Positions 968 to 47,115 of a stretch of 47,115 nt of DNA are shown here, in pieces (position 1 is the first letter of the stretch; each line of letters begins with the position of its first letter). The position numbers and the translations under genes are program-made. Source of the stretch: a virus; the IMG/VR virus record IMGVR_UViG_3300048790_000043, positions 1-47,115 of that record; one strand, 5' to 3'. The notes beneath the pieces are model-generated. The model was not told the origin of the DNA. It searched no databases and saw nothing but the letters and a program-made list of their open reading frames with translations.

Positions 968-992
968 TTGATTCGTCAAGTATGTTATTACC
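968..992 (-). repeat. IS terminal inverted repeat, right copy
   Basis: This 25-bp sequence is the exact reverse complement of 46870-46894. It marks the transposase-proximal end of the IS1595-like element. Bases outside it no longer match the other end. Confidence 0.85.
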
Positions 993-1156: not shown

Positions 1157-1193
1157 CAAATCGGAGACGCCTAAATTATTTTTAAAATACTTG

Positions 1194-1222
1194 TTGACAT
1201 CCGATTACTAATCGCATAGGGT
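1194..1222 (+). promoter_or_regulatory. Rightward early promoter with internal operator
   Basis: The -35 box TTGACA (1194-1199) and -10 box TAGGGT (1217-1222) are 17 bp apart. The perfect palindrome CGATTACTAATCG (1202-1214) fills the spacer, so a bound protein would occlude RNA polymerase. A nearly identical promoter with the same palindrome faces the other way at 46371-46399. The start site would be near 1229, about 34 nt before the first gene. Confidence 0.75.
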
Positions 1223-2753: not shown

Positions 2754-3907
2754 GCAACGAATTTGTCCCGCGCAAAGCGGAGAAGAAGCGCGTCAAGCTG
2801 AAGATGGCCGTACAGGGTCCATCGGGATCGGGCAAGACGTGGGGAGCCTTGGCGCTGGCAAAGAACCTTTGGCCAGACGGCAAGGTGTGTGTGGTAGACA
2901 CTGAGAACGAGTCCGCATCGCTCTACGCTGACAGTTTTCAGTTCGACACGATACCGCTCGCACCTCCATTCACCACGGCTCGCTATGTCCAGTGCATCGA
3001 TGCTGTGGCGAAGGCTGGATATGACGTGGTCATTCTCGACTCGATCACGCCCCAGTGGGACGGTGAAGGCGGTATTCTTCGCCGCAAGGAAGAGATGGAC
3101 CGAAGGCCCGGAAGCAACGGTTATACCAACTGGGCCACCTTCACGCCGGAACATGAGGCGTTTAAGCAGGCGATTTTGCAAACGCCCACGCACGTCATCG
3201 CGACGATGCGCTCCAGGCAGGAGTACATCCTTGTGGCGAACGACAAGGGTAAGCAGGTTCCCAAGAAGGTCGGCATGGCTCCGGTTCAACGCGATCAGAT
3301 GGACTACGAATTTACCCTCGTATTCGAATTGGGGATGGACCATCGCGGGGAAGTGTCCAAGGACCGCACCGGCCTCTTCAACGAGAAAATTGTCGACTTG
3401 GCCTCACCTGAAATCGCCTTTGCTATTCGCGGCTGGCTGGAGCGCGGCACGGAAGCTCCGCAGGCTGGCCCAGTGACTCCCGCGAGCGTAACGGGTGCTC
3501 AACCCTCCATCCGGCAGCCAGCGAACGCCCCAGCGGTCTCACAGGCTAACGCTGTCCAGATCGTTAAGAGGATTCCGCCTGCGAATCTGGTGTTTACCGT
3601 TGCGGCGATCAAGGTATGGCCTGCGGACGGAGATAGCAACGCTTCGATGAATGTGGCGTTCACCGGCAAGCTGGTCGCTCCTGACGGCAAGTGGACTGCG
3701 GACCACGTTACATGCTGGCATGAGAGCCTGTTCGAACTACTTCAGGGGTCCCTTGGCAAGGTAATCGAAGTGTTTGTCACCGAGCGGGACAAGAACGGCA
3801 GACACTTCATCGACATCAACGATGTGGTTTCCATTTCAGACCCGGCGACCGGGGAATATGTCGAGTACATGGACGGCAAGCCCGTTCAGATTGGAGCGCA
3901 GCAATGA
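2750..3907 (+). CDS. Sak4-type recombination ATPase (AAA_24-like) with C-terminal OB-like domain
   Basis: This 385-residue protein has a P-loop GPSGSGKT (23-30), a Walker B-like VVILDS (93-98) and the short RecA-like core of phage Sak4 ATPases, about 240 residues. Sak4 proteins promote single-strand annealing or strand exchange together with a phage SSB. After a Pro/Ala/Gln linker (~235-275) comes a beta-rich region (~280-365) with the spacing of an OB fold. Sak4 and SSB are usually separate genes, so this may be a natural fusion. The start was chosen at MSNEFVP: it has GGAGACA upstream and an ATGA overlap. A coiled-coil partner of the recombination-cassette type lies two genes downstream. 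Confidence 0.75.
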   Translation: MSNEFVPRKAEKKRVKLKMAVQGPSGSGKTWGALALAKNLWPDGKVCVVDTENESASLYADSFQFDTIPLAPPFTTARYVQCIDAVAKAGYDVVILDSITPQWDGEGGILRRKEEMDRRPGSNGYTNWATFTPEHEAFKQAILQTPTHVIATMRSRQEYILVANDKGKQVPKKVGMAPVQRDQMDYEFTLVFELGMDHRGEVSKDRTGLFNEKIVDLASPEIAFAIRGWLERGTEAPQAGPVTPASVTGAQPSIRQPANAPAVSQANAVQIVKRIPPANLVFTVAAIKVWPADGDSNASMNVAFTGKLVAPDGKWTADHVTCWHESLFELLQGSLGKVIEVFVTERDKNGRHFIDINDVVSISDPATGEYVEYMDGKPVQIGAQQ

Positions 3908-5474: not shown

Positions 5475-6143
5475 ATGACATTGATTTTGAAGTCCATCGA
5501 AAAGGAGGAGGCAGACTGCCGCGCAAGGTGCGAAGGAATGAAGGTCGGAGACTGGATTTTGCATTGCCACAACGAAGTGCTGTTGGAGCGTCTGACCGAA
5601 CCAGTTGAGAATCGCATTAACTACATCCTTCGCTCAAAAACAGATAATGTCGCCCTGCGGTTGCGCCTGATGACCCCCCCCATCCTAGATGCGGAAGTCC
5701 TCGCCGACGCCGAGTGGGAGAAGGCCGACGCCGAGTGGAAGAAGGCAGACGCCGAGTGGGAGAAGGCAGACGCCGAGTGGAAGAAGGCAGACGCCGAGTG
5801 GAAGAAGGCAGACGCCGAGTGGGAGAAGGCAGACGCCGAGTGGGAGAAGGCCTTCTCCGAGTGGAAGAAGGCCGACGCCGAGTGGGAGAAGGCCGACGCC
5901 GAGTGGAAGAAGGCAGACGCCGAGTGGGAGAAGGCAGACGCCGAGTGGGAGAAGGCAGACGCCGAGTGGGAGAAGGCCTTCTCCGAGCGGGAGAAGGCAG
6001 ACGCCGAGTGGGAGAAGGCCTTCTCCGAGCGGAAGAAGGCAGACGCCGAGCGGAATAAGGCCTACCTACCTCACTACGCTCGGCTGTATCCAAACTCCCC
6101 ATGGAACGGGAAAACCATCTTCGCCGGAGAATTTGCGCTGTAA
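5475..6143 (+). CDS. Heptad-repeat protein (17 x 7 aa) with WNGKTIF tail
   Basis: The gene has a good ribosome site (AAAGGAAAA). Residues 1-76 form a mixed N-terminal domain. Residues 77-195 are 17 tandem 7-residue repeats of A-D-A-E-W-E/K-K, with a few AFSE or R-for-W variants. The last 27 residues end NSPWNGKTIFAGEFAL. The repeats should form a continuous helix with regular Trp and Ala faces, probably a coiled-coil rod. Similar repeat proteins with a CPWNGKTIF-like tail occur as hypothetical proteins in environmental genomes; function unknown. The 21-bp DNA repeats are near-identical, so copy number may vary. Confidence 0.75.
   Translation: MTLILKSIEKEEADCRARCEGMKVGDWILHCHNEVLLERLTEPVENRINYILRSKTDNVALRLRLMTPPILDAEVLADAEWEKADAEWKKADAEWEKADAEWKKADAEWKKADAEWEKADAEWEKAFSEWKKADAEWEKADAEWKKADAEWEKADAEWEKADAEWEKAFSEREKADAEWEKAFSERKKADAERNKAYLPHYARLYPNSPWNGKTIFAGEFAL
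5703..6059 (+). repeat. Tandem 21-bp repeat array, 17 copies, in frame
   Basis: There are 17 exact-length 21-bp units (357 bp) with few substitutions, mainly GAG/AAG, TGG/CGG and GACGCC/TTCTCC changes. All units keep the reading frame, so slippage would add or remove whole heptads. It is not a CRISPR array because there are no spacers. Confidence 0.9.
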
Positions 6144-6362: not shown

Positions 6363-7907
6363 TTGGCTCTCTCTCTCTTTGAACAGAAAACCCGCAGCCT
6401 TCACCCCTTGCACCCACGCCAGGTCGCCGCCATTGAGTCGGTGAGGGCTGCGATTAAGGAGAAGCATAAGCGCATCGTTCTCCAGGCCCCGACCGGGTCA
6501 GGTAAGACCGTACTAGCCGCTCATATCATTGCCGGGGCGCTCGACAAGGGCAAACGCCCGCTGTTCTGCGTCCCGAGACTATCGCTGATAGGGCAGACAA
6601 TCAAAAGGTTTGAATCCCAGGGAATTGTGGACATCGGCGTAATCCAGGGGACTCACGAGCGAACGGATTTTCAGGCAGCAGTGCAGGTGGCAAGCGTCCA
6701 GACGCTCGTGAAGAGGCCGCTGCCTGAAATCGATCTCGTCATTGTCGATGAATGCCATCTAAGTTTCACGGCCTTCGATAAGATTCTCGATTCCGAGGCA
6801 TGGAAGGACAAAGTAGTCATCGGCCTGTCCGCTACGCCCTGGGCCAGGGGGATGGGCCTGCGCTGGACTAAACTCATCGTCCTGGCGACTACCGCAGAGA
6901 TGATTGAGGAGGGCTGGCTTACCCCGGTTGTGGGATACGGGGTGCCAGAGGAGTTCATGCCGGACGTGTCCACGGTCCATACAAACTTCGATGGAGATTA
7001 CGTCGAGGGCGAAGCCGAGAAGGCCATGACCACGGTTAAGATCGTCGGCAACGTGGTGAAGACATGGAAGGAGAAAGGCATCGGCGAAAAGACGTTCATG
7101 TTCTGCGTCAATCGGAACCACGCAAAGAAGATGCAGCAGGAATTTGAAGAGGCTGGGGTTCCTTGCGGGTATATCGATGGAACGATGGACGCAGAACAGC
7201 GGGAAGTCGTTTTTCGGAAATACCGCTCCGGCGAAATCAAGATACTTTCATCAATCGACACGATTGGCATCGGCATTGACGAGGATGTGCGCTGCATCAT
7301 CTACCTGCGCTTGACTAAGAGCGAAATGAAATGGGTGCAGGATGGTGGCCGGGGCATTCGGCCGGCTGACGGAAAGGATTCGTGCCTGCTATTGGATCAT
7401 GCTGGCACCGCTGAAGAGTTGGGTCTGTTCACGGACATTCATCACGATGAGCTGGACACAACCGATCCGAGCCAAAAAGCGGAGCCGAAGAACAACACTA
7501 CCCCTAAGCCGAAGAAGTGCCCCAAGTGCAATATATTGGTTTCACGCAGCGCCGATGTATGCCAGTTCTGCTTCACGCCGCTATGGAAGGGCAAGAGCCC
7601 AAAAGAGATTAACGCGGATCTGGTGAGGATTGAAGCACAGAAAAAGAAGGACCTCAAGGCAGCAAGACCTAAGCGGCTTGAGCGCAGTGAGGAGCAGGCG
7701 TTCTACTCTGGCCTTCTCGACTTCGCACAGAGGCGGGGATTCAAAGAGGGATGGGCGGCAAACAAGTTCAGGGAAAAATTCGGTGTTTGGCCGAACCGGC
7801 TCGACAAGGTGCCAATGACACCGCGCAAGGCAGTCAAGGAATTCATCGCGGAGTCGGGTAAGAAGTGGCGTGAACAGACAACCGAAGAATACCAAGGAGA
7901 GTTCTGA
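6363..7907 (+). CDS. SF2 DNA/RNA helicase (DECH box) with zinc ribbon
   Basis: This 514-residue protein contains helicase motif I QAPTGSGKT (41-49), motif II DECH (129-132), motif III SAT (156-158), a helicase C domain and motif VI QDGGRGIRP near residue 335. This identifies a superfamily 2 ATP-dependent helicase of the phage type. A CPKC...CQFC zinc ribbon follows at ~390-410, then a helical C-terminal region. The start appears to be TTG at 6363, with GAGGAG upstream; no in-frame ATG lies nearby. It probably unwinds DNA for replication or recombination alongside the Sak4-type ATPase. Confidence 0.85.
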   Translation: MALSLFEQKTRSLHPLHPRQVAAIESVRAAIKEKHKRIVLQAPTGSGKTVLAAHIIAGALDKGKRPLFCVPRLSLIGQTIKRFESQGIVDIGVIQGTHERTDFQAAVQVASVQTLVKRPLPEIDLVIVDECHLSFTAFDKILDSEAWKDKVVIGLSATPWARGMGLRWTKLIVLATTAEMIEEGWLTPVVGYGVPEEFMPDVSTVHTNFDGDYVEGEAEKAMTTVKIVGNVVKTWKEKGIGEKTFMFCVNRNHAKKMQQEFEEAGVPCGYIDGTMDAEQREVVFRKYRSGEIKILSSIDTIGIGIDEDVRCIIYLRLTKSEMKWVQDGGRGIRPADGKDSCLLLDHAGTAEELGLFTDIHHDELDTTDPSQKAEPKNNTTPKPKKCPKCNILVSRSADVCQFCFTPLWKGKSPKEINADLVRIEAQKKKDLKAARPKRLERSEEQAFYSGLLDFAQRRGFKEGWAANKFREKFGVWPNRLDKVPMTPRKAVKEFIAESGKKWREQTTEEYQGEF

Positions 7908-40953: not shown

Positions 40954-41257
40954 CTTGCTCTCCAATCTCGGGCATATTGCCCCAGGCTGATTCGGTAATA
41001 CTGCGCACCTGCGCCGCCGAGTTCGCCCTTATGGTTGAATGATCTACCCTTTTGGCGGGTGGCGTCAAAGGGTTTTTGCGAAGACGCAGAATCTCGTCCT
41101 CCAGTTTGGCATTCTGAGCCACGGCGGTGGAGAGCTTCTCGATAAGCATTTGCGCCGATTGGTCCGAGGATTTGCGCTCTCTCTTCTTATGCCACAGCTC
41201 CAGCCCGAGAAAGACGTTTCCAATTGCCAGGATGAATATTACTGCCTCGCTGCCCAT
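40943..41257 (-). CDS. Membrane-anchored coiled-coil protein (104 aa)
   Basis: The start MGSEAVIFILAIGNVFLG has AAAGG about 8 nt upstream, overlapping the terminase end by 19 nt. One membrane helix (residues ~4-21) is followed by a basic stretch and a coiled coil (~35-63, LIEKLSTAVAQNAKLEDEILRL). An inner-membrane protein in the head cluster is unusual; it could be a second spanin-like component. Confidence 0.5.
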   Translation of the reverse strand: MGSEAVIFILAIGNVFLGLELWHKKRERKSSDQSAQMLIEKLSTAVAQNAKLEDEILRLRKNPLTPPAKRVDHSTIRANSAAQVRSITESAWGNMPEIGEQDGA

Positions 41258-42957
41258 GGCGATCCTTTCTTTGGCGAGTGGTCCTGCTTCCATTTTGCCA
41301 TCAACACCGACTTGGCGGTCATGTCGGCTTTTGGACTCAGGGTCTCATAATACTCCTGGGCCCTGACCTCAAGCGGGGCCTCTGCCCGCGCTCGCAACAT
41401 GCTCTTTACCAAATACCGTAGCATGTCCCCGTCGTCATCGGCATCCGTTGGCGTCTTTAGCACGTCTTCTGACCGGCCTGGGTGCTTGTTGTCCCGAATC
41501 AGGAGAGGAATGGACTCAATAATGTTTTCGCAGTCTGCCGAGATCAGCAGCATGGGTGTCTTGACCGAATACCCGCCGCCTTCATCGTCCCAGTCATCGT
41601 CCGTCCGCGTCGGATTCATGCAACCGCTCATCACGTCGCAGGTTTTCTTCATCATGGCATAGAGGAGCCGCCAGCCGCCGATCCTGTTGTTATCCGCCTG
41701 CTCGCAGTGTGGGAGACCATGGCGCTTCAGCTCCTCAGCCACACGCTCCGCCGTTGATCTTCCAGTAGAATTCTTCTCCCACGCATCCACGCTCAGGAAA
41801 TAGCGCTGCGTCCTCTTTATCTCGTGATCGTGCATAGTGCCAATGCACCGCCGGACCAAAGCCGTCTCCTCCAAGCCCTTTTCGGCGTAGCTGCGATAGA
41901 CCACTACAGCCTCTACTGGCTCGGCAATCACCGCGCCGAGTATTTCTTTGGCAACCTTCGGGGTAATCTTCCCGCTGGCCGCCCAGCCTACCGAGGCATT
42001 ATGGACAAATCCATCGTCGTGCGCCATCCATCGAGGCCACCAATTTTGGATCAGCGCTTCTTCCTGTTGGCGTGTAAGTATCAATCTTGATTCGTCCCAC
42101 ACTCCGGCAAAGTATTGACCGGCGAATGAATCAAAAGAACCAAGCAAATGGCCAGCCCGCAACGAAGGCGGTAGCGAATTGAGCTTTCTCCCCTCCGCCG
42201 TGCGATGGATGAATAAATGGAATCGGCAACACTGGTAATCAGGGCCTCGTCCGTCCGCTCCATACTTGCACTCCTCTCCCTTCTTCAGCCCGTCCGGTAA
42301 CCCGTAGAACTGGTGAGGGGTAATTCCAAGCGTCTCAAACCATACGTAGTTATCCCACCCAAACAAGTGGGTAAACGTGAAGTCGTCAGGCCTTTCATTC
42401 TCCTTGAAGCGCATCTGGGCAAAAACACGCCTCAGAAACTCTGTGCCTATGCCTCCGGGGTTGAAGAACAGCCCCGTCTTACACTCCCCCAATGGAGCGC
42501 CCGGCCACCGATTGGCAGTATGGATCGTTTGCAACTCCTGCTCGGAGAACTGCTCTGCCTGATCGATCATGATGTCGTAGAACTCTGGACCCCAAAACTT
42601 CTGATCTACCTCTTGCTGGTTCTCCGCGAACATGAAGTGGATCTCAGAGCCGTTGGGGAGGACAAACTTCTTCTTTCCCTCGTGCCACCAATCCCGCATC
42701 TCCGGAAACTCAAGAAAGTATCGCTGTACGTGATTACGCTCAAGGTCAGGCCAGGTGCGGCGAACTATTGCCCCATGAGTCTTAGGCCGATTCTGACGCC
42801 GGTCCAGCATTATGCGGCGCAGGCCGCCCGATTTGCCGCCAGCCCTGGACCCTCCCCCGCCAATCCATGTGGCAGCCTCAGTCCCAGCGCGATAGAACAG
42901 CTTGCCTATCTCTAACTGCTTCGGCTGGAGCACCAGAGGAATGATCTTAGAAGCCAT
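41239..42957 (-). CDS. terL: Terminase large subunit
   Basis: This 572-residue protein has a Walker A variant GGGGSRAGGKS (33-43). The Walker B strand IMIDQ (129-133) has Gln where the catalytic Glu is usual, followed by AEQFSE. The C-terminal half has the RNase H-like nuclease pattern: an Asp in LSVDAWEKN, later acidic residues, and DADDDGD near the end. It powers DNA translocation into the head and cuts concatemers. TerS lies two genes upstream. Confidence 0.85.
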   Translation of the reverse strand: MASKIIPLVLQPKQLEIGKLFYRAGTEAATWIGGGGSRAGGKSGGLRRIMLDRRQNRPKTHGAIVRRTWPDLERNHVQRYFLEFPEMRDWWHEGKKKFVLPNGSEIHFMFAENQQEVDQKFWGPEFYDIMIDQAEQFSEQELQTIHTANRWPGAPLGECKTGLFFNPGGIGTEFLRRVFAQMRFKENERPDDFTFTHLFGWDNYVWFETLGITPHQFYGLPDGLKKGEECKYGADGRGPDYQCCRFHLFIHRTAEGRKLNSLPPSLRAGHLLGSFDSFAGQYFAGVWDESRLILTRQQEEALIQNWWPRWMAHDDGFVHNASVGWAASGKITPKVAKEILGAVIAEPVEAVVVYRSYAEKGLEETALVRRCIGTMHDHEIKRTQRYFLSVDAWEKNSTGRSTAERVAEELKRHGLPHCEQADNNRIGGWRLLYAMMKKTCDVMSGCMNPTRTDDDWDDEGGGYSVKTPMLLISADCENIIESIPLLIRDNKHPGRSEDVLKTPTDADDDGDMLRYLVKSMLRARAEAPLEVRAQEYYETLSPKADMTAKSVLMAKWKQDHSPKKGSPWAARQ

Positions 42958-43723: not shown

Positions 43724-44194
43724 CTATTCCGGCTTGTCCAGGATAGACCGCGCCACGAAAACAATGGGGCCGCCATCGGGCCCCACATGCTCTTGCTGTA
43801 CTTTATCTCCATAATCCAGCGGTGCCTCCAGCTTGACGCCCTTCAGCAACTTGGAAGCTTCCCACCTGTCATGCTCGGCCCGCACGCGCATCAACTGCAC
43901 AGCGGCCGCATCCACCCGCACGCTTACTCCTCCATCGGGATCGGGTACCGTGCAGGTGGGTGTTTCAAGGAGCTTTGCCCCCGCAGACTCAATCCTTGCC
44001 TCCACTTGGAGCCTACGCGCTCGCGCATACATAGGGATAAACTCAGGGTTTAAACAGGCCCATTTTCTCACCGTGTCGTAGGCGGGCATACCATCTTCGG
44101 CGCAAACTTGAATCAGGAATCTTCCGGTAGCCATCTCTCCGCAGATATAGTCAGCGAGGGATTTGCTGTATTTTGTTGGGCGGCCACCTGGCAT
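43724..44194 (-). CDS. terS: Terminase small subunit
   Basis: The 156-residue protein begins MPGGRPTKYSKSLADYICGEMATGR, the start of an HTH-containing TerS family with the PAYDTVRKWACLNPEFIPMYARAR DNA-recognition region. The middle is a coiled-coil-like oligomerisation region, and the C-terminus is a Gly/Asp-rich tail. It recognises the packaging site and delivers DNA to TerL. The ATG overlaps the preceding stop (TAATG). Confidence 0.8.
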   Translation of the reverse strand: MPGGRPTKYSKSLADYICGEMATGRFLIQVCAEDGMPAYDTVRKWACLNPEFIPMYARARRLQVEARIESAGAKLLETPTCTVPDPDGGVSVRVDAAAVQLMRVRAEHDRWEASKLLKGVKLEAPLDYGDKVQQEHVGPDGGPIVFVARSILDKPE

Positions 44195-46192: not shown

Positions 46193-46209
46193 CTTGTCTC
46201 CTTGCCGCC

Positions 46210-46353
46210 CTAGCGCTCGCGGCGCACAAGTGCTTTGTATCGAGCGCGTAGCCGCTTCTGCCCAGCAGCGTTCTTGCACTGTAGCTTGCAGTACAACTGC
46301 CACGGCTTCACCTTGGTGAACTCGGTCTTGCAGAATTTGCATTTGCGCTTCAT
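46210..46353 (-). CDS. First gene of the leftward early operon: zinc-finger protein (47 aa)
   Basis: ATG 46351-46353 has GAGG upstream, about 15 nt after the predicted transcription start. The peptide MKRKCKFCKTEF has ligands C5/C8 and C22/C26, one zinc finger, and a basic tail (QKRLRARYKALVRRER) suited to nucleic-acid binding. It may be a small regulator of early genes. It was too short for automatic gene calling and overlaps no better frame. Confidence 0.55.
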   Translation of the reverse strand: MKRKCKFCKTEFTKVKPWQLYCKLQCKNAAGQKRLRARYKALVRRER

Positions 46354-46370
46354 GAAACCTCATTAACACC

Positions 46371-46399
46371 ACTCTATGCGATTAGTAATCGGATGTCAA
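46371..46399 (-). promoter_or_regulatory. Leftward early promoter with internal operator
   Basis: On the minus strand TTGACA (46394-46399) and TAGAGT (46371-46376) are 17 bp apart. The palindrome CGATTAGTAATCG (46379-46391, reverse complement of the copy at 1202-1214) lies in the spacer. From the -35 box through the operator the sequence matches the rightward promoter base for base, which implies shared control. Confidence 0.75.
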
Positions 46400-46559
46400 G
46401 AGGAATCTGCTTATATTTATTGACTCTCCTTAAGTTGTTGCTTTTAAACGACTAATGCTTGATTCCGAGGGAGGGAGAGACACGAAAAGCAAGGGTGGTA
46501 TGCTCTTCGTGCGACTTGATCACAGTATGCTGTCATCGTCGGTCGGTCGCAACGTGCCT

Positions 46560-46745
46560 CTAAGCTCCCAATTGCTTACGCTCGGCTCCCGCAGAAGTCC
46601 GATCCTCTATCGACCAGGGAGCACCGGAGGCCGGCGCAAGGGGCCGGTTCACCTTTGAGGGACTGTCCTCATTGGACGCAATGCAACGATCCAGGCGCAC
46701 GATTGCGAGAACCTTGACGCGGTACGAATTGTCGAAGATTTGCAC
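46560..46745 (-). CDS. Possible small protein (61 aa)
   Basis: The GTG frame MQIFDNSYRVKVLAIVRLD... runs to TAG at 46560-46562. Its first half looks like coding sequence (beta-like); the second half is Pro/Ala-rich. It lies about 17 nt after the start site of the promoter candidate at 46769-46797. There is no ribosome site. Evidence is weak. Confidence 0.3.
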   Translation of the reverse strand: MQIFDNSYRVKVLAIVRLDRCIASNEDSPSKVNRPLAPASGAPWSIEDRTSAGAERKQLGA

Positions 46746-46768
46746 ATAAAGTGACCGAGACAGTTGCG

Positions 46769-46797
46769 AATATAGCACGGTGAGGTGTATTCTGCAA
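46769..46797 (-). promoter_or_regulatory. Candidate leftward promoter near the IS end
   Basis: TTGCAG (46792-46797) and TATATT (46769-46774) are 17 bp apart on the minus strand. It abuts the structured element at 46799-46855. It would transcribe towards 46.5 kb. The -35 box is poor, so this is tentative. Confidence 0.35.
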
Positions 46798-46798
46798 A

Positions 46799-46855
46799 TG
46801 CGGGGTGGTGGCCGAGACTCCCCGATGCTCTCACCTTTTTGAGAGCAGCCCCGCA
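46799..46855. other. Structured element with nested stems
   Basis: An outer 7-bp perfect stem (TGCGGGG 46799-46805 with CCCCGCA 46849-46855) encloses a 7-bp hairpin (GCTCTCA 46827-46833 with TGAGAGC 46840-46846). The left outer arm can alternatively pair with CCCCG at 46820-46824. Two alternative folds suggest a switch-like RNA or a recombination/replication site. It is too short for a tRNA. No T-tract follows on either strand. Confidence 0.45.
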
Positions 46856-46869
46856 CAACCTTGCACAAC

Positions 46870-46894
46870 GGTAATAACATACTTGACGAATCAA
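46870..46894 (+). repeat. IS terminal inverted repeat, left copy
   Basis: These 25 bases are the exact reverse complement of 968-992. It bounds the passenger-gene end of the IS1595-like element. Confidence 0.85.
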
Positions 46895-46937
46895 CCCCAA
46901 CCCGAGCATACTGAAAGTGCCGTGACAGGGCAGCGCG

Positions 46938-47115
46938 TTAATCGAAGAACTTCGGGAGGGAAACCGGATGTCCATTCGGGCACTCTAGGTTCTTCGCGCG
47001 CCAAGTCTTGGTTTCGGCGACTCTTTCTTCGTGCGTATCTCCGCTCCAGCTATGCACGAATGGTAGAAGAGATTCGCAGCCTTCCACTCCGCATCCGAGC
47101 CACACGTCGTCAAAA
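46938..47115 (-). CDS. Zinc-ribbon passenger protein of the IS element (3' part; 5' end at 1-345)
   Basis: This stretch holds the last 59 residues of the 131-residue protein that starts at position 345, ending HPVSLPKFFD before TAA 46938-46940. Bases 46989-47115 repeat 1-127. It includes ligands C81/C86 and C118/H122. The break is an artefact of where the circle was opened. Confidence 0.6.
   Translation of the reverse strand, partial: FDDVWLGCGVEGCESLLPFVHSWSGDTHEERVAETKTWRAKNLECPNGHPVSLPKFFD
46989..47115. repeat. Terminal direct repeat, right copy (assembly overlap)
   Basis: This is an exact copy of bases 1-127. Removing it gives a circle of 46,988 bp. Confidence 0.95.

Follow-up and report, generated by a model that had tools for sequence, protein, structure and literature searches.

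The virus record analysed here (IMG/VR; the whole stretch of 47,115 bp is referred to as the window) carries the same 127 bp at both of its ends, as found by sequence comparison. This terminal identity is read as the k-mer overlap of a circular assembly, and on this ground we treat the genome as circular with a length of 46,988 bp. On the circle two oppositely oriented promoter-like sites, denoted P_L and P_R, are 1,782 bp apart. Starting from P_L, the interval holds a structured RNA gene followed by an IS1595-like element; the remaining ~200 bp up to P_R contain a terminator-like hairpin at 991-1006 (Table 1). The cumulative GC skew has its minimum near this junction region, as would be expected from divergent transcription, from replication or from the two combined.

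Table 1. Features of the twin-promoter locus and of the two arms in the window, and positions of homologues of the structured RNA in other contigs.
Feature	Position	Strand	Remarks
Right promoter P_R	1194..1222	+	TTGACA (1194-1199), 17-bp spacer, TAGGGT (1217-1222)
Left promoter P_L	46371..46399	-	TTGACA (46399-46394), 17-bp spacer, TAGAGT (46376-46371)
Operator-like 19-bp dyad in P_R spacer	1199..1217		core 1202-1214
Operator-like 19-bp dyad in P_L spacer	46376..46394		same as in P_R; core 46379-46391
Putative UP-element-like stretch	1172..1190	+	A+T-rich; abuts the P_R -35 box upstream; inferred from sequence
First rightward gene (P0001), 155 aa	1263..1730	+	no known function; relatives in two close relatives only
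First leftward gene, 47 aa	46210..46353	-	zinc-finger protein, weak NinG similarity
TerS	43724..44194	-	Sf6_terminase family; leftward arm
TerL	41239..42957	-	leftward arm
Candidate regulator, 69 aa	44584..44793	-	HTH_17/excisionase-like; PF12728, E=2e-9
Candidate regulator, 114 aa	43341..43685	-	possibly ribbon-helix-helix-like (low confidence); C-terminal zinc ribbon
Candidate regulator, 167 aa	441..944	-	IS1595-type zinc ribbon and HTH, without catalytic domain; between the twin promoters
IS1595-like element, left 25-bp inverted repeat	46870..46894	+	
IS1595-like element, right 25-bp inverted repeat	968..992	-	
Structured non-coding RNA gene, ~310 nt	46451..46761	-	5' end ~46761; conserved 3' end GCATTAG ~46451
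Promoter-like site of the RNA gene	46769..46798	-	TTTGCA-18-TATATT or TTGCAG-17-TATATT; TG before -10
Repeat R1	46808..46818	-	GTCTCGGCCAC; upstream copy of the locus-specific repeat
Repeat R2	46751..46761	-	GTCTCGGTCAC; copy at the RNA 5' end
RNA homologues in other contigs	L050:4482-4770; L051:1860-2119; L052:758-1040; L053:10690-10952; L054:3330-3613; L055:7583-7866; L056:2080-2364		also in L059-L061

Both promoters precede the first gene of their block, and each of these two genes possesses a ribosome-binding site. Downstream of P_R, the 155-aa frame starts with ATG at 1263 behind a good ribosome-binding site; its relatives are confined to IMGVR_3300048502_000146 and _000024. On the opposite side the 47-aa zinc-finger frame starts with ATG at 46353, which leaves a leader of ~11 nt from P_L. 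The rightward block extends to ~15.7 kb and comprises genes for a RecA/Sak4-like ATPase, a helicase, a primase-like protein and an HNH protein; it is the replication arm. The leftward block reaches ~15.6 kb and consists of small genes, including the one for the HTH_17 protein, followed by an Sf6-type TerS, TerL, a portal-like protein and large structural genes. In the initial annotation the promoters were thought to drive both early operons away from each other. Identical units do head two divergent blocks; the leftward one runs through the terminase into structural genes and so may not be only early, and P_L may be used throughout infection. Separately, a 222-aa ORF at 5703-6065 of the window was found to contain in-frame tandem repeats (AGTGGGAGAAGGC units) that vary among close relatives.

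The two promoters lie where they had been described, with -35 and -10 boxes as given there, and they are the sole perfect matches to TTGACA-N17-TANNNT in the window. The sequence TTGACATCCGATTACTAATCGCATAG forms an exact 26-bp inverted pair with just two copies (1194-1219 on the plus and 46399-46374 on the minus strand). This identity spans the -35 box, the spacer and the start of the -10 box, beyond which one -10 base differs, while upstream of the -35 boxes no similarity is found between P_R and P_L and the flanks are unrelated. By simple arithmetic the chance expectation for such a pair is ~1e-7 to 1e-6; it is not explained by chance. The palindrome within the spacer (CGATTACTAATCG) was likewise recovered in two exact copies with no third in a scan of the window, where any other match to the operator needs 3 mismatches and the number of such matches is at chance level. 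The perfect palindrome initially attributed to both promoters is thus present in two identical copies, although its perfection has to be qualified: in the 13-bp core (CGATTA-C-TAATCG, a 6+1+6 dyad) the base in the middle has no partner, and the symmetry reaches 19 bp with 8/9 pairs (ATcCGATTA-C-TAATCGcAT, which begins on the final base of the -35 box and ends on the first one of the -10 box). Dyads with 6-bp arms are encountered in ~0.4% of the 17-mers of this genome. The -10 boxes of both promoters match TATAAT poorly, and P_R was not picked up by a default sigma-70 scan.

A spacer that is shared amid unrelated flanks implies a shared binding protein. Moreover, an identical 17-bp spacer exceeds what a sigma factor requires, and together with the dyad and the optimal spacing this makes a dimeric regulator the simplest reading. 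Exact identity would be equally expected if a short promoter cassette had recently been copied and no regulator were involved, yet the same identity is met in both lineages described below, and the copied piece would have to stop exactly at the promoter boundaries and to have a dyad as its spacer; we consider such a copying event very unlikely.

A scan of IMG/VR with patterns combining the spacer with the -35 or with the -10 box returned two other contigs only, which stem from one metagenome and carry both copies each. IMGVR_3300048502_000146 is 98-100% identical to the window, and IMGVR_3300048502_000024 (L009) is ~95% identical in the right arm and mosaic elsewhere. In L009, positions 1169-1219 are unchanged despite ~16 substitutions in 1077-1470, and the right promoter has TAGAGT in place of TAGGGT as -10 box; on the left side, 46209-46500 contains two substitutions in total and the genes beyond are replaced. 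Relatives that keep the operons, in which the palindrome should not be absent according to the initial annotation, thus retain both copies; these are three close genomes including the window, a number so small that it makes for a weak test, and with carriers so closely related an unchanged operator is not significant alone. Exact and degenerate operator searches of IMG/VR and of 84,980 species genomes (257 Gb) gave these two close relatives and otherwise matches at chance level. TTGACA plus dyad was found 5 times in the species genomes, which is about chance, so that no host regulon is visible among them; the host of the phage possibly lies outside that set. The operator is also absent from the terminase relatives (30 loci, 56-83% identical except for a single close relative); the genes that head the two arms are missing there as well, and these loci therefore do not test the expectation that operator and operons go together.

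One distant analogue of the twin promoters is present in L018, where the leading promoter of the replication arm (TTGACATGACGGTAATGACGTAATAGAGT) has the same -35 and -10 boxes at 17-bp spacing, with another repeated motif between them (TGACGGTAATGACG). Of two further candidates, a 35-bp palindrome with TAATCGCAT in L028, L025 and L029 is no more than a lead to a diverged operator, because chance alone should produce this 9-mer a few times in that much DNA, and the promoter of G002 (L010) with a TTAGC/GCTAA spacer dyad was rejected as a twin counterpart, because it occurs as a single copy. The perfect 35-bp palindrome at L028:2126-2160 (TGACAAGATAATCGCATTATGCGATTATCTTGTCA) is adjoined by a similar half-site, and palindromes of this type are located upstream of TerS in three terminase relatives, in two of them with one mismatch. 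L011 harbors a dispersed palindrome (GGTCCGAATTTGGACC) at 3156, 4741, 17967 and 19539 which differs from the window operator; these sites look like a multi-site operator set. The same contig contains an apparent integrase gene, and what it has in common with the window is limited to the RecA-like gene plus a small number of other genes. In G012 (L016) relatives of both the terminase and the helicase are present and transcribed in one direction. Finally, the TerL frame of L018 (6934-9522, 862 aa) shows an apparent intein-like insert (GDMCFRGDTLINTEHG... to ...FFAGGILAHN), with an overlapping HNH-like ORF in a different frame.

In promoters of the MerR family a dyad is also situated between the -35 and -10 boxes, with a spacer of 19-20 bp that requires protein-induced distortion. 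The twin promoters resemble these in the position of the dyad, but their spacer length (17 bp vs 19-20 bp) rules out a MerR-type promoter, as no distortion is needed at the optimal spacing. Binding of the dyad by an activator or by a host regulator that times both arms, instead of by a phage repressor, would agree with the identical unit at both promoters and with the weak -10 boxes, which suit an activator. It appears improbable in view of a 17-bp spacer with a perfect TTGACA, for which no correction of the MerR type is required, and of the chance-level number of matches in the species genomes.

The phage had been described as lacking a recognisable repressor gene, and this holds: no repressor gene was identified among its ORFs and no CI/Cro-like one between the promoters, where just an IS1595-type zinc/HTH fragment and the passenger ORF of the element are found. 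Three proteins come into question as regulators (Table 1), among which the present results do not discriminate. For the 114-aa protein, an AlphaFold model with helices 11-20 and 24-36 (mean pLDDT only 60, low confidence) tentatively suggests a ribbon-helix-helix-like N-terminus. The 167-aa zinc/HTH ORF occupies the position which a lambda-like repressor would have. It belongs to the IS1595-like element, whose 1,111 bp span the record ends (46870-47115 and 1-992). The transposase of the element is truncated, and its zinc-rich passenger ORF runs across the junction of the record ends. The Zn-ribbon/HTH N-terminus of an IS1595 transposase (PF12760, E=2.6e-9) and the inverted repeats are present, whereas a complete DDE catalytic domain was not found (the match to NF033547 covers 54/215 positions and is below cut-off); there is no target-site duplication, and the 8-mers flanking the element differ. 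The earlier statement that the promoters flank an IS region is correct in that this element lies between them, and incomplete in that the structured RNA gene with its own promoter is located there too.

The insertion bears on the main rival explanation, namely that the operators are relics of an ancestral lambda-like immunity region, the repressor of which was lost or replaced as the IS1595-like element entered. The phage would now be virulent, and its operators may still be silenced by the repressor of a related prophage. The occurrence of the element in the interval without a complete repressor is in line with this, as is the absence of an integrase among the phage ORFs scanned, and a precedent is known from mycobacteriophage D29, in which part of the repressor gene is deleted while the operator and stoperators are retained (PMC5712189). 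Nevertheless, a relic is unlikely given that both operators are exact in two lineages which differ elsewhere, and that no IS-free relative was found whose interval encodes a repressor. In L5 and D29 the operator overlaps the early promoter Pleft, which is adjoined by a highly transcribed non-coding region (PMC5712189, PMC9283540). The locus described here is similar with respect to the operator lying over the promoter and the adjoining non-coding region, and virulent D29 with its retained operators offers a further parallel. In contrast to the operator/stoperator sites of L5, which are asymmetric and of which ~24 are spread over the genome (PMC5712189, PMC9283540), the sites in the window are dyad-symmetric and exactly two in number. 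A stoperator system of the L5 type is ruled out by copy number, with two exact copies vs many sites that are mostly intergenic.

The reading we favor, and hold to be probable, is a dual control resembling that of the lambda PL and PR promoters, in which one dyad-binding protein, most likely a repressor, sets both halves of the genome. Lambda PL and PR are divergent promoters with dyad operators (OL and OR) over the -35 and -10 boxes, and CI and Cro act at both. By analogy, P_R and P_L would be the principal promoters at which host RNA polymerase transcribes the phage, each heading one divergent half and bearing, between -35 and -10, one copy of the same dyad operator. A dimeric protein recognising CGATTA-N-TAATCG would exclude RNA polymerase from both promoters simultaneously, and one protein could in this manner govern the activity of both halves, as CI/Cro do at OL/OR. 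Sequence identity, dyad, position and presence in relatives are observed directly; from these we infer promoter activity and repression rather than activation. As in lambda, two divergent promoters head two blocks and the same dyad operator overlaps both, so one protein could serve both. Unlike lambda, which has three operator copies per promoter, there is one exact copy each; no CI/Cro-like gene was found between the promoters, where the structured RNA gene and the IS1595-like element are located, and the leftward block continues into structural genes. Counting against dual control are the lack of an identified repressor gene, the poor -10 boxes and the presence of structural genes, which are unusual under an early promoter. 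The initial idea of a single regulator for both arms draws its force from the same promoter/operator unit occurring twice; no protein is assigned to it, and the variant of an anti-repressor is unsupported.

P_L is located directly downstream of the structured RNA gene, and the region 46412-46863 resembles non-coding DNA of several distant phage contigs. About ten homologues of the RNA were recognised in other phage contigs with varying gene neighbourhoods, further ones being obtained from two motif scans of IMG/VR (CTTCTGCGGGAG...GRCRGCRTAC and GATGACRGCATACYG...CCCTC..GAATC); L058 was discarded, as it appears to be a chance match inside a gene. An interpretation as tRNA, tmRNA or Rfam member was dismissed because ARAGORN found nothing in the region and no Rfam family scored above its gathering threshold; DNA searches with the RNA against phage and plasmid records gave no similar sequence. 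A protein gene was dismissed as well, since no frame is open across the homologues and tblastn similarities change frame. Covariation is strong: RNAalifold predicts 36 pairs, 18 of them with changes on both sides. By inspection, hairpins Hb, H2, H4, H8 and H9 as well as a UNCG hairpin were assigned, the latter (CTTCTGCGGGAG, CUUC-UGCG-GGAG) having CCUC/GGGG in L059 and a GAAA-type loop in L061. Covariation is seen in helices H3 (CGGCC/GGTCG, CGGTG/CATCG, CGACG/CGTCG) and H5 (GCTCCC/GGGAGC, GGATCA/TGATCC, GTGTCA/TGACAC, CTATCC/GGATAG), which by inspection cross each other and probably form a pseudoknot. In anchor-fixed windows the two halves of H5 have a mean run of 5.4 within their own locus vs 3.6 across loci, and 0/100,000 permutations reach 5.4. 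Single-sequence folding is only modestly better than for shuffles (z ~-2 for two sequences, -0.8 for a third), as expected if pseudoknots matter, and the case for the RNA therefore rests on covariation, which leaves little doubt that a real structured RNA is encoded. It may have been described beyond Rfam and the open-access literature searched. GOLLD, ROOL and OLE are large ornate RNAs of bacteria and phages (PMC12286853, PMC2864571); like these, the RNA is long, highly structured and devoid of an obvious reading frame, and some of them also occur in phages. It differs in its length of ~310 nt, in having no Rfam match, in its own sigma-70-like promoter, and in a locus-specific 5' end that is repeated upstream of that promoter.

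Such a repeat is present in about a dozen loci besides the window, and each RNA locus has a sigma-70-like promoter upstream of a conserved hairpin C-GACAATTCG. R2 begins 6-7 nt past the -10 box, and R1, a copy of ~12 nt in the same orientation, is found 53-89 bp further upstream, before the RNA promoter. The sequence of the pair differs between loci (L059 has two copies of GTCGAAGCCCAC, L018 two of GCCAAGGTGA), and in the window neither R1 nor R2 occurs elsewhere. Over 16 loci, with L039 and L053 lacking a clear pair, the mean score is 10.4 within the own locus vs 5.9 across loci, a value that 0/100,000 re-pairings attain; full independence of the loci is not given, since the repeat of the window is of the same type as that of L015. 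L018 (5500-5640) and L019 (350-480) agree in sequence after GACAATTCG but differ in the promoter and the R pair that precede it, and in L009 (region 6400-7380) ~810 bp are inserted at this hairpin, comprising antitoxin-like small ORFs along with a new R1-promoter-R2 unit. The swap and the insert, both at (C/T)GACAATTCG, indicate that modules are also exchanged at the hairpin. As a first guess, R1 and R2 may be an operator pair of changing specificity; the most unusual guess is that R2 is a guide-like RNA end. Taken further, this might be a new class of pseudoknotted phage RNA of ~310 nt whose locus-specific first ~12-25 nt are an evolving address that matches the DNA copy upstream of its own promoter, the match being used by the RNA or a protein partner to control or recombine the locus beside the twin operators; we regard this as a long shot.

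A matched locus-specific repeat at the 5' end of an RNA is unusual and is accounted for by none of the explanations offered. The RNA, which recurs in distantly related phage contigs, raises the interest of the twin-promoter locus and is possibly the more interesting find. For the dual control favored here, the twin sites would provide a two-site regulatory map for an uncultured phage group without a recognised repressor, and the operator could serve as DNA bait for finding the regulator.
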